A stretch of 49,559 nt of DNA from an uncultured Gammaproteobacteria bacterium (GTDB lineage Bacteria > Pseudomonadota > Gammaproteobacteria > Pseudomonadales > Litorivicinaceae): the NCBI GenBank assembly GCA_913042205.1, contig CAJWIY010000009.1, forward strand, positions 1 through 49,559, read 5' to 3'. This document shows, in pieces, positions 34,349-38,728 of the stretch. The notes under the pieces are model-generated. The model was not told where the DNA came from, searched no databases, and saw nothing but the letters and a program-made list of their open reading frames with translations. The first letter of the stretch is position 1, and each line of letters starts with the position of its first letter. The position numbers and the translations under genes were made by a program.

Positions 34349-34860
34349 TGCGGGTTTCTTTAATCGTTGCTCGGGCAGATAACGGCGTTATAGGGATCGA
34401 TAATAAGCTTCCATGGCATCTTCCTTGTGATCTCAAATACTTTAAACGAGTGACAATGGGTAAGCCGGTTGTTATGGGCCGCAAGACGTTTGAATCTATC
34501 GGTCGGCCGCTTCCCGGTCGGACCAATGTGGTTGTAACGCGCAATCATGATTGGTCGGCACTTGGTGTGCGAGTTGTTTCAAGTCTTCGGAGCGGATTGA
34601 AACTGGCTTGCGCCCAAGCCGAGCTAGATGGCGTTGATGAGGTGATGCTGATCGGAGGTGCCACTCTCTATCAAGAGTCGATGGCGTTGGTAGATCGGAT
34701 GTATGTGACGCAGGTGCATCTATCACCCGAGGGGGACGCATTTTTTGAGGCACCAGATGAAACAATGTTCAAGCAAACCTCTGTCTATGATCATGTCGCA
34801 GATGAGATCTCGCCAGCCCACAGTTACGAGATCTGGGATCGGCGTCAGACGACCACTTAA
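34348..34860 (+). CDS. folA: Dihydrofolate reductase
   Basis: FolA reduces dihydrofolate to tetrahydrofolate with NADPH. The 170-residue protein has [24 protein letters not shown] with the catalytic acidic residue in [18 protein letters not shown] for NADPH, and IGGATLYQ. The ATG overlaps the thyA TGA by one base. The stop codon shares TTAA with convergent ilvD. Confidence 0.96.
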
Positions 34861-36530
34861 TCACCGTCTGTAACAGCACCCAAGCTAGCTGATGATACAA
34901 GTCGCGCATATTTTGCCAGGACGCCGCGTTTCGGGTTTGTCTTTTCCATTTTCCAGGATGCTTTTCGGGTAGCAAGTTCAGCGTCCGGGAGATCAACAGT
35001 TAACGTATTTGTTTTTGCATCAATTGTGACGACGTCACCATCTTGCAGGAGCCCAATGGCACCCCCTGCAGCTGCCTCAGGCGTGACGTGGCCAATCACA
35101 AATCCATGAGAACCTCCTGAGAACCGGCCGTCCGTGATTAGTGCAACCTCTTTACCGAGCCCTGCACCCATGATGGCACTGGTCGGTGACAGCATTTCAC
35201 GCATGCCTGGCCCACCCTTGGGTCCCTCATAACGAATTACGATGACGGAACCCTTTCCGATTTTTCCATCTAAAATCGCTGAGAGCGCTTCTTCTTCCGA
35301 ATTAAAGCAACGAGCATCTCCCGTGAACGACAATCCTTCTTTGCCTGAAATTTTAGCAACAGCGCCCTCGGGTGCAAGATTACCGTATAAAATGCGCAGG
35401 TGGCTGTCTTCCTTCACCGGATTTTTAAAGGCACGAACAATGTCTTGGGACTCTGGATACGGTGAGACAGCTGCTAAGTTTTCTGCCATCGTCTTTCCAG
35501 TACAGGTCATCACGTCACCATGTAAAAGACCGTGATCGAGCAACATCTTCATGAGCGGCTGGATTCCACCAATTTCAATCAGCTCACTCATTAGGTATTT
35601 TCCTGATGGTTTGACGTCTGCTAGTACCGGGACTCGCTCTCCAATCGTCGTAAAATCATCGAGAGTTAGTTCTATTCCAGCGCATTGAGCCATTGCGAGC
35701 AGATGAAGTACCGCATTGGTTGAGCCACCAAGCGCGATAACGACCGTGATCGCGTTTTCAAACGATTTTTTATTAACGATATCTGATGGTTTGAGATCCG
35801 TCTCGATCATCCGCATGACGGCTGCTCCAGCGCGCTCGCAGTCCTCTTTTTTGTCCGATGATACAGCTTCTTGAGCGGATGAATTCGGTAATGATAACCC
35901 GAGCGCTTCAATGGCACTGGCCATGGTATTCGCAGTGTACATCCCGCCGCAGGAACCGGGCCCAGGGATTGCGGTTTTCTCAACCGCGATAAGCTGGTTG
36001 TCGTCAATCGTTCCTGCTGCACGTTGACCAACTGCTTCAAAAACAGAGACGATGTCGCGACGTTCCGCGCCCGGCTTGATAGTTCCGCCGTACACGAAGA
36101 CTGATGGACGATTCAGTCGGAGCATAGCCATAACGCAGGCAGGCATGTTTTTATCGCAACCGCCGATTGTGATAACTCCATCAAAGCCTTGGCCTGCGAC
36201 GACAGTTTCAATGGAGTCGCAGATCACCTCACGGCTCACTAACGAGTAGCGCATTCCTGGCGTACCCATACTGATACCGTCACTGACGGTGATGGTATTA
36301 AATACCACAGCCTTGGCGCCAGACGCGTTTGCCCCTTTCTCAGCATGATCAGCTAACTGGTTGATATGCATGTTGCAAGGAGTGACCATGCTCCACGTAC
36401 TGGCGATTCCGATTTGTGGTTTTTTGAAATCGTCATCATCAAAACCTACAGCGCGAAGCATGGCGCGAGAGGGTGTTTGTGTCAGTCCGTCGACGATTAC
36501 GGACGAATAAGGGCGACGTTTGTCGGTCAT
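34857..36530 (-). CDS. ilvD: Dihydroxy-acid dehydratase
   Basis: IlvD is an iron-sulfur dehydratase in valine, leucine and isoleucine synthesis. It has cluster cysteines in [10 protein letters not shown] and [14 protein letters not shown]. At 557 residues it belongs to the shorter IlvD form rather than the 612-616-residue form of E. coli and Pseudomonas, although the location (folA-ilvD) resembles Pseudomonas. argA lies 8 bp upstream on the same strand, so the two are probably one operon. Confidence 0.95.
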
Positions 36531-36538
36531 AGCCGGTC

Positions 36539-37828
36539 CTATAGTTCTTTTTTAAGGATCAGCGAATTTCGCTGAAGGTTATACAGAGCCTGCCGATTTT
36601 CTGGCAGCTCTTCAATAGAAGACATTACAAAACCACGTTCTTTAAACCAGTCGCTTGCTTGTGTCGTCAATACAAAGAGACTTTGAAGCGATTTAGCCCG
36701 TGCCTGCTCTTCGACATGTTTCAATAGTTTGGTACCGATGTTCTGGTCCGTTGTGGTTTGGTCTGCGGTCAGCGCGGCTATTTCAGCACACCGGTCATCT
36801 AGGGGATACATTGCAGCAGAGCCTAAAATACGGCCATCTTGTTCGATCACATAAAAATGATTTATTTCGGCTTCGAGTTTGTCGCGAGACCTTTGAACCA
36901 GCGTGCCATTTTCCTCCATTGGCGCGAGCAAGTGGATTAGTCCTGGTAAATCATCAATTCGTCCTTGACGAACAGATGCGGCAGGCTGCGACGCAATCAA
37001 GGTTCCAGTCCCTTCGGTGGTCATCAGCTCGGTCAAAATTGCGCCATCAAGGCCTGTGCCGAGCAGATGGCAACGCTCGACACCACCGCGAACAGCCCTT
37101 TCTGTGGCATCCAACCGGCGTTTCATTTCATCATTTTGATTGGATTTTATGGTACTAATTAATGACAGGGCCAATTCAGAAATGCGACCTCCTTTTTGGT
37201 CTAAGCAATATGGCGTTTCGCCCATCAACACGAGTTTATCGGCGTGCAGTGCAACAGCAGTCTCGGCAGCTACTTCCTCGCTGGCTAGATTGTAGAGCTC
37301 GCCGGCCGGTGAATGAGCTAGGTGGTCCAGATAAACGACCGATCCTGCGGCTAATTGTCTGCGGATACCGCTGGCATCAATGCGCCTTACAGAACCTGTC
37401 AATTTATGATCAATGCCCTCGTGTATGCCTACTGGTTTTGCCGAAACGAAGTTTCCTGAGGTCAGAGAAGAGCGACCTCGGTTCCGATGCAGCGCTCGCA
37501 TGTAGAGCCCTCGAAAGACCAATCCATTTCTGCATGCAAGTTCTACTATCCGTTTAAGTAACGTCTCATCGGTGATGCGTCGATTTCCATGATGGGTGTT
37601 TGCAATACCTTGCTCATGGATATACGAATCAATGGCGTGGCGTGTACTCTGTACGAGAACAAGGTGAACGCCCAAGGCATTGAGTAACACAAGATCCTCT
37701 ACCAATCTGCTTACACTGGATTGAGCTTGGTCACAATCGGACAGTAAAACGACAAAGGTTTTACCCCTAAAATGCTCGATGTAAGGTCCTGCTTCGCGGA
37801 GCCACGATACTAAGGGTTGCGTTTGAAT
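36539..37828 (-). CDS. argA: N-acetylglutamate synthase, probably starting at an ATT codon
   Basis: ArgA acetylates glutamate, the first step of arginine synthesis. It has an N-terminal amino-acid-kinase domain and a C-terminal GNAT domain ([23 protein letters not shown]). The first usual start in frame, a TTG at 37705, would give 388 residues and cut off [20 protein letters not shown], which aligns with the conserved ArgA N-terminus. No ATG, GTG or TTG exists between 37705 and the in-frame TGA at 37874-37876. An ATT at 37826-37828 has AAGAGGAG seven bases upstream and yields 429 residues, the usual length (Pseudomonas about 432). It is divergent from the CYTH gene, 33 bp away. Confidence 0.88.
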
Positions 37829-37835
37829 AGTTAAA

Positions 37836-37843
37836 CTCCTCTT
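37836..37843 (-). promoter_or_regulatory. Strong Shine-Dalgarno that decides the argA ATT start
   Basis: On the coding strand AAGAGGAG is followed by TTTAACT and then ATT (37828-37826). The seven-base spacing from AGGAG is textbook, and no ATG, GTG or TTG lies at a suitable distance. This supports initiation at the ATT codon. Confidence 0.75.
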
Positions 37844-37861
37844 GTTGCGGGGAATTGTGCG

Positions 37862-38728
37862 ATGAATCCGACATCAACTCCAGAAACGATTGAGCTCGAA
37901 CTAAAATTCGGGTTACGTGATTGTGGTATTGATCGAATACCTCTTGTGCTCAAGGACTTACTGCGATACGACATACTTGCCCAAGCCAACACCTTGAAAA
38001 ACGCCTATTATGACTATCAAGGCGTACTACATGAACACGGTGTTGCCATTCGAACCCGGTCGGTTGGTAACCGCCACGAGATGACTGTAAAAGTGCGCCA
38101 AGCTGCTGAAAGCGGTTTGTCACGGCGAGAGGAGCGGAACATAAGGATTCCAGAGCCTGTATTGGACTATGGTGCTTTAGACGAGCTTCCTCTTCCTGAT
38201 CCCGTGAAAACAGTTATCAAAAATCGATCATTAGACCCTGTCTTTGAGAATGTGTTCGAGCGAACTGACTGGCGTATTACGCAGCCTGATTGCGATCTCA
38301 TGCTCTCTTTGGATAGGGGATCAGTTCGGGTAGACAACCGTGAATCACCAATCTCAGAACTCGAACTGGAATTAATTTCTGGAGATGTAAATCGAATGAT
38401 CGAGTTTGGTTGTCAGTTAGCAGACTCGCTACCGTCCTTCATGGCGATCATTTCCAAAGCCGAGCGTGGAGATCGATTGATTCGGTCCGCACATCCAATG
38501 CAGGATCTGAAACCGCGTCAAAGACGAGATTGGTTGAATTGGCTGAGTCGCGCACTTGATCCACTATCAGGCCCGGCCCCAGGCGAGGCATATCTTGCCC
38601 TCGAGGAGCTAGGTGAACCCGAGGCTTTAGTAATGTTTGGTGAGCCAGTTGCGCGGGGCGAATTACCTTTGGGTCTCGCGCGCTGGATGGTCGAGTTATC
38701 TTTGGAGTCAATACGTGGAACCGACTGA
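37862..38728 (+). CDS. CYTH domain protein (inorganic triphosphatase-like)
   Basis: This 288-residue protein begins with a CYTH domain: ELELKF gives the ExExK metal-triphosphate motif, followed by alternating charged strands (VAIRTRS, MTVKVRQ, RREERNI, ELELELISGD). Such enzymes hydrolyse inorganic triphosphate or related compounds. E. coli carries the similar YgiF directly before glnE, which supports the assignment. YgiF has a C-terminal CHAD domain of about 200 residues; here only some 70 residues follow the CYTH domain, so CHAD is missing or vestigial. glnE starts inside its last 14 bases. Confidence 0.82.
   Translation: MNPTSTPETIELELKFGLRDCGIDRIPLVLKDLLRYDILAQANTLKNAYYDYQGVLHEHGVAIRTRSVGNRHEMTVKVRQAAESGLSRREERNIRIPEPVLDYGALDELPLPDPVKTVIKNRSLDPVFENVFERTDWRITQPDCDLMLSLDRGSVRVDNRESPISELELELISGDVNRMIEFGCQLADSLPSFMAIISKAERGDRLIRSAHPMQDLKPRQRRDWLNWLSRALDPLSGPAPGEAYLALEELGEPEALVMFGEPVARGELPLGLARWMVELSLESIRGTD

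Follow-up and report, generated by a model that had tools for sequence, protein, structure and literature searches.

A genus-wide conserved AUU codon as the very probable start of argA in Litoricola-type Gammaproteobacteria

Where does translation of argA begin when the reading frame offers no ATG, GTG or TTG ahead of the conserved N-terminus of the protein, and what might an unusual start be good for? The question is raised by a 49,559-nucleotide stretch of DNA from an uncultured gammaproteobacterium (contig CAJWIY010000009.1 of assembly GCA_913042205.1), referred to here as the window. In it the gene for ArgA, which catalyses the first committed step of arginine synthesis, was originally predicted to initiate at an AUU codon. 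To our knowledge, few bacterial genes begin at AUU, and it is for infC that the use of this codon is best explained. The following features of the window are used throughout.

36539 to 37828, minus strand: argA (N-acetylglutamate synthase) coding sequence read from the ATT, 429 codons plus stop
37826 to 37828, minus strand: ATT (AUU), the putative start codon, the same in all 21 argA genes of the genus
37836 to 37843, minus strand: AAGAGGAG, Shine-Dalgarno sequence 7 bases before the ATT, computed duplex -8.6 kcal/mol
37874 to 37876, minus strand: TGA, in-frame upstream stop
37703 to 37705, minus strand: TTG, first canonical in-frame start, within conserved coding sequence
37829 to 37861, no strand: gap of 33 bases between the divergent argA and CYTH genes
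37862 to 38728, plus strand: divergent CYTH-domain gene
34857 to 36530, minus strand: ilvD-type dehydratase, with its ATG start 8 bases past the argA stop

The minus-strand frame spanning 36539-37876 is open from the TGA at 37876-37874. A frame scan confirmed that ATG, GTG and TTG are absent until the TTG at 37705, which lies 41 codons downstream of the ATT at 37828-37826. Profile searches with the protein read from this ATT gave 451.4 bits for NF003641 (cut-off 344) and 433.3 bits for TIGR01890 (cut-off 202.85), the latter being matched over positions 1-429 of 429 and beginning at ArgA residue 6. The kinase-like domain comes first (PF00696 at residues 35-255) and is followed by the GNAT domain (PF00583 at residues 316-393), and a phmmer search aligned the solved N-acetylglutamate synthase (NAGS) 2r8v to residues 6-427. 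As judged from these matches, the gene is a full-length ArgA of the same enzyme family and domain layout as the classical enzymes that start at ATG, GTG or TTG. A start at 37705 would cost the N-terminal segment with the motifs PYI and RGKTFV, a segment that aligns with 2r8v. The profile and 2r8v alignments therefore agree with the prediction that the 41 codons ahead of this TTG encode the ArgA N-terminus. Gene finders restricted to ATG, GTG and TTG would trim 41 residues from the window protein and 27 in many relatives, so that a conserved N-terminal segment is lost. This truncation had also been foreseen, and our canonical-start scan indeed opened the window reading frame at 37705.

Ahead of the ATT, the order is AAGAGGAG (37843-37836), TTTAACT and ATT, which bears out the predicted spacing of 7 bases between the Shine-Dalgarno sequence and the start. 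The duplex energy of -8.6 kcal/mol, computed with an assumed standard 16S tail, is stronger than that of 90% of 160 canonical-start genes of a related genome (G001). Among the relatives, the Shine-Dalgarno sequence is weaker at loci L018 (-5.8 kcal/mol) and L019 (-6.9 kcal/mol). Folding of the mRNA at the start site showed no consistent pattern, with 11 to 86% of 160 genes being more structured.

For a comparison within the genus, we used 22 genomes of the Litoricola/OM252 group, including the isolates HIMB30 and LSUCC0096; this Litoricola-type group has been named OM252, 'Candidatus Halomarinus' (PMC8269220). Whole-genome searches found ArgA in the window genome and in 20 same-genus relatives, whose proteins are 57-95% identical to the window ArgA. 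In the 22nd genome (G010, 68% complete) only a kinase-like match was obtained and ArgA was not found. One genome (G015) carries, besides its main argA, a partial and divergent ArgA-like match on contig C400 (5884-6423; 180 profile positions, 216.7 bits; 30% identity to the window ArgA). This match represents either contamination or a second gene and was left out of the 21 argA genes.

Codon 1 is ATT in all 21 genes and ATG in none, so the alignment of relatives that had been proposed as a check came out in favour of the AUU start. It also bears on the simplest alternative, namely that an ATG was misread as ATT in sequencing or assembly. The window does come from a 93-contig assembly, but the identical codon occurs in 21 genomes, isolates HIMB30 and LSUCC0096 included; for the genus an error is refuted, and we give it practically no weight. 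The codon itself is conserved beyond its amino acid. The 21 ArgA sequences share a single residue in 152 alignment columns. Leaving aside Met and Trp, 150 such columns remain, and only at codon 1 is the codon itself invariant. The other five all-Ile columns contain mixtures of ATT, ATC and ATA, with 2-5 codon changes on the ArgA tree, and outside codon 1 ATT makes up 37.5% (199/530) of the Ile codons in these genes. As the 21 sequences share ancestry, with 16 of them falling in one clade of the ArgA tree, they are not independent trials.

Coding constraint was compared on both sides of the ATT in 16 of the 21 taxa, L018-L021 being omitted because of upstream gaps and L006 because of a short flank. 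In codons -11 to -1, the pairwise differences at codon positions 1, 2 and 3 numbered 212, 137 and 250, with no codon periodicity, whereas in codons 2-41 they numbered 525, 284 and 2107, a strong periodicity, with 1736 synonymous against 661 nonsynonymous pairwise differences. Coding constraint thus begins at the ATT. The distance between argA and the divergent CYTH gene points in the same direction: in four relatives the gap measures 32, 34, 35 and 35 bases rather than 33 with the ATT unmoved, so the stretch upstream of argA is not kept in frame. Furthermore, codon -2 of L005 is an in-frame TAA, after which only AGT and ATT come ahead of the next canonical start at codon 42; translation of this gene therefore cannot start farther upstream.

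These data have to be weighed against the possibility that the true start of argA is a canonical codon elsewhere, either the TTG at 37705 or a codon upstream of the ATT, and that the upstream reading is artefactual. The opening of the window frame at 37705 in the canonical scan would fit such a reading, as would the codons that precede the ATT in three relatives: codon -1 is ACT, AGT, ACC, GCC or CAT in 18 of 21 genes, but ATG in L017 and GTG in L020 and L021. However, the window frame lacks any canonical codon ahead of 37705, and in 15 of the 21 genus members, the window among them, none precedes PYI in frame. Codons 2-41, moreover, evolve as protein and carry sequence conserved in the family. 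In three further genes (L014, L018 and L019) there are only TTG or GTG codons that are poorly placed relative to the Shine-Dalgarno sequence or lie inside conserved sequence: a TTG at codon 6 in L014, an in-frame TTG at codon -2, one base from the Shine-Dalgarno sequence, in L018, and TTG and GTG at codons 6-7 with a GTG at -53 in L019. A canonical start elsewhere is accordingly most improbable for the window gene. Relatives with unambiguous starts elsewhere had been named as grounds for giving up the original prediction; this is not the situation in 18 of the 21 genes, whereas L017, L020 and L021 may start at the ATG or GTG at codon -1. Since the ATT is retained behind ATG or GTG in these three, it can persist without being the start. 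On the tree, at least two changes between a canonical codon at -1 and ATT only are required, the deep branches of the genus being weakly supported.

Outside the genus, the picture is different. A canonical in-frame start lies ahead of PYI in all 77 outgroup genomes examined, which belong to another genus of the same family or to the order, and in this respect classical argA genes are unlike that of the window. Matches were obtained in 137 of 145 genomes of the order and starts were inspected in part of them; the count of 77 corresponds to 79 loci minus the duplicates L186 and L203, and 40 of the outgroup regions were picked by hand, not randomly. In at least one outgroup locus (L027) the pattern used to anchor PYI hit a preceding QYV, so that the tally of ATG, GTG and TTG is affected, but not the 77 of 77. 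With this rough anchor, 53 outgroup genomes had just one candidate start close to the N-terminus, and in 23 of them it was GTG or TTG, which hints that argA might often carry a weak start across the order.

Taken together, the AUU at 37828-37826 is very probably the start codon of argA, as originally predicted, given the ATT in 21 of 21 genes, the invariance of the codon, the onset of coding periodicity and the outgroups.

The ATT could alternatively be conserved as a DNA-binding site rather than as a start, for instance as an ArgR half-site (ATTCA). The start codon does form part of ATTCA in 20 of the 21 genus members, L002 having ATTAA. Yet the bases directly before the ATT vary, and the argA frame would still require a start at this place. 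In addition, ArgR (PF01316) was detected in 0 of the 22 genus genomes, 10 of which reach 90% completeness or more with contamination of no more than 5%, while the positive control was matched in E. coli and eight others. An ArgR operator therefore does not explain the ATT, and we consider a binding site of any kind very unlikely as its cause. Since no ArgR was detected in these genomes, some other control of argA is to be expected; the AUU start could be such a control, or it could act as a fixed throttle beside feedback inhibition.

The surroundings of argA are compact. Since argA and the CYTH gene are only 33 bases apart, one or both of their promoters probably lie within the coding sequence of the opposite gene. 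Adjoining the CYTH start, CGCACAAT is present in 21 of 21 genus members. On the other side, ilvD follows 8 bases after argA in 14 of the 21, including the window, and 3-10 bases after it in five more, and the two genes are probably read from a shared transcript. A weak start could then also set ArgA below IlvD. In L003 (genome G016) and L005 (genome G007), the adjoining ilvD is decayed: it has lost its start codon and carries early stops. Both genomes are incomplete, and for each the ilvD family search gave only one lower-scoring dehydratase, located elsewhere. The ATT is kept in both, which counts against a balance of ArgA below IlvD as the main reason for the AUU.

How might such a start work? 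We propose that argA would be translated from the AUU at 37828-37826 into a 429-residue protein beginning fMet-Gln-Thr, with Met as the presumed first residue, and that the strong Shine-Dalgarno sequence 7 bases upstream would position the AUU. In other bacteria AUU is an inefficient start codon and is discriminated against by IF3. Initiation on argA would hence be weak and the level of ArgA, encoded by the first gene before ilvD, would be low. As an overall explanation, an AUU-started argA whose weak initiation keeps ArgA low is the best available, and we hold it with good confidence. That the AUU is a throttle on output, itself presumed to be low, and has been kept by selection appears probable. 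A dynamic control linked to IF3, on the premise that initiation here depends on that factor, is a more tentative idea, which we consider rather doubtful.

The AUU might also be the start and nevertheless be neutral, a poor start codon that drifted in and stayed without any value for control. The strong Shine-Dalgarno sequence could offset part of the loss in initiation, and the throttle role is proposed by analogy. On the other hand, codon 1 is never ATG, GTG or TTG in 21 species whose proteins diverge to 57% identity with the window ArgA, and all other degenerate positions with a fixed residue have changed their codon at least once. Switches to AUU are moreover reported to be very rare, with one among 61,358 ancestral AUG starts and one among 5,080 ancestral GUG starts (PMC5622118). 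A neutral AUU is thus unlikely, and we continue with the throttle kept by selection as the preferred reading.

We also searched the genus for other non-canonical starts. The inferred infC start was readable in 13 genus members, 10 of which have ATC and 3 ATT. A canonical codon in frame before INEEIR is absent in 11 of these 13, and in the other two the sole one is a TTG 15 codons downstream of the ATC. Thus infC of this genus also appears to use AUC or AUU. The infC family search gave no match in 8 of the 22 genomes, that of the window included, and a fourteenth match was partial. Loss of IF3 as the reason for AUU use was considered and rejected, the absence of infC from the window genome reading as an assembly gap. 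In the window genome (G000), neither infC nor a full-length thrS was found in the genome search, probably owing to a gap between contigs; rplT is present on contig C5 near 63940-64281 of this assembly, which is rated 98% complete. It is a speculative and rather unlikely extension that argA belongs with infC to a small group of genes whose start codons IF3 discriminates against. Entry into arginine synthesis would then be tied to the IF3:ribosome ratio, as a translational control of argA in genomes where no ArgR was detected.

As a second AUU gene, pcnB was rejected: at its conserved N-terminus it has TTG in 18 and ATG in 1 of 19 genus members. The TTG in these 18 of 19 (L149-L167) is in itself a conserved weak start, on a gene whose E. 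coli counterpart begins at AUU. For a broader survey, a 400-kb sample, about one fifth of each genome, was compared between G001 and G008, yielding 266 non-overlapping pairs of open reading frames. In 76 of them at least six aligned codons precede the first canonical start in both genomes, and four passed a filter for coding-like change. The only clear case was argA, with 42 codons upstream of the first canonical start, 13 synonymous and 0 nonsynonymous differences. The other three were weak (11 codons with 3 synonymous and 1 nonsynonymous differences, 12 codons with 2 and 0, and 43 codons with 6 and 4) and were rejected by eye. As argA alone was clear among these 266 pairs, a general habit of AUU starts in the genus was rejected as well. 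The comparisons G001-G020 (215 pairs) and G008-G020 (278 pairs) gave 0 candidates; G020 has a GTG before the ATT, so that argA could not show up in them. Starts that precede a canonical one by fewer than six codons escape the survey, and infC was outside it, being located on other contigs in all three genomes. An earlier version, run without the test for synonymous change, gave at least 68, at least 11 and at least 17 candidates, and those listed were mostly conserved leaders by eye.

Among the closest known systems is infC, the gene of IF3, which like argA here has a non-canonical AUN start. It differs in that infC autoregulates its own product, whereas we know of no role of ArgA in initiation. 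An AUU on a gene other than infC, although again a different gene from argA, is that of pcnB in E. coli, which according to Binns and Masters 2002 is reportedly translationally limited and said to keep output low. The start of infC is given as ATT in E. coli and ATC in Streptomyces (PMC5472188) and as AUA in S. aureus (PMC13009471). Nostoc proteogenomics is reported to have revised eight genes to ATA or ATT starts on the basis of peptides (PMC8557916). Such starts may therefore be commoner than the textbook pair. Our literature search, in which the broader work on AUU, IF3, infC and non-canonical starts was judged by title, yielded no report of an AUU start on argA, which may be in print elsewhere.

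Similar in arrangement are genes with conserved non-canonical starts and strong ribosome binding sites. In Streptomyces, sigR is reported to start at GTC in 32 of 34 species and at GTT in the other two, with a strong conserved ribosome binding site; it is repressed by IF3, as are non-canonical starts in E. coli and Streptomyces (PMC5472188). Both sigR and argA thus have genus-wide conserved non-canonical starts with a strong ribosome binding site, GTC in the former and ATT in the latter. In Staphylococcus, cvfC1 (AUU), the first gene of its operon, and ccpN (AUA) are described as having conserved non-canonical starts with strong extended Shine-Dalgarno sequences, and AUU and AUA starts gave about 10% of the reporter output of AUG in S. 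aureus in poor medium (PMC13009471). The combination of conserved start and strong Shine-Dalgarno sequence is as in argA, in different genes and a different phylum. The IF3 effect on sigR was measured and the starts of cvfC1 and ccpN were shown by ribosome profiling, whereas the argA start is predicted from sequence comparison. We infer its purpose, a low level of ArgA and sensitivity to IF3, from infC, sigR, cvfC1 and ccpN. A biosynthetic gene with a genus-wide AUU, in a group with cultured isolates, offers a natural test between a fixed throttle and IF3-linked control. On the present comparison argA is a new member, conserved throughout its genus, of the small known class of AUU-started genes.
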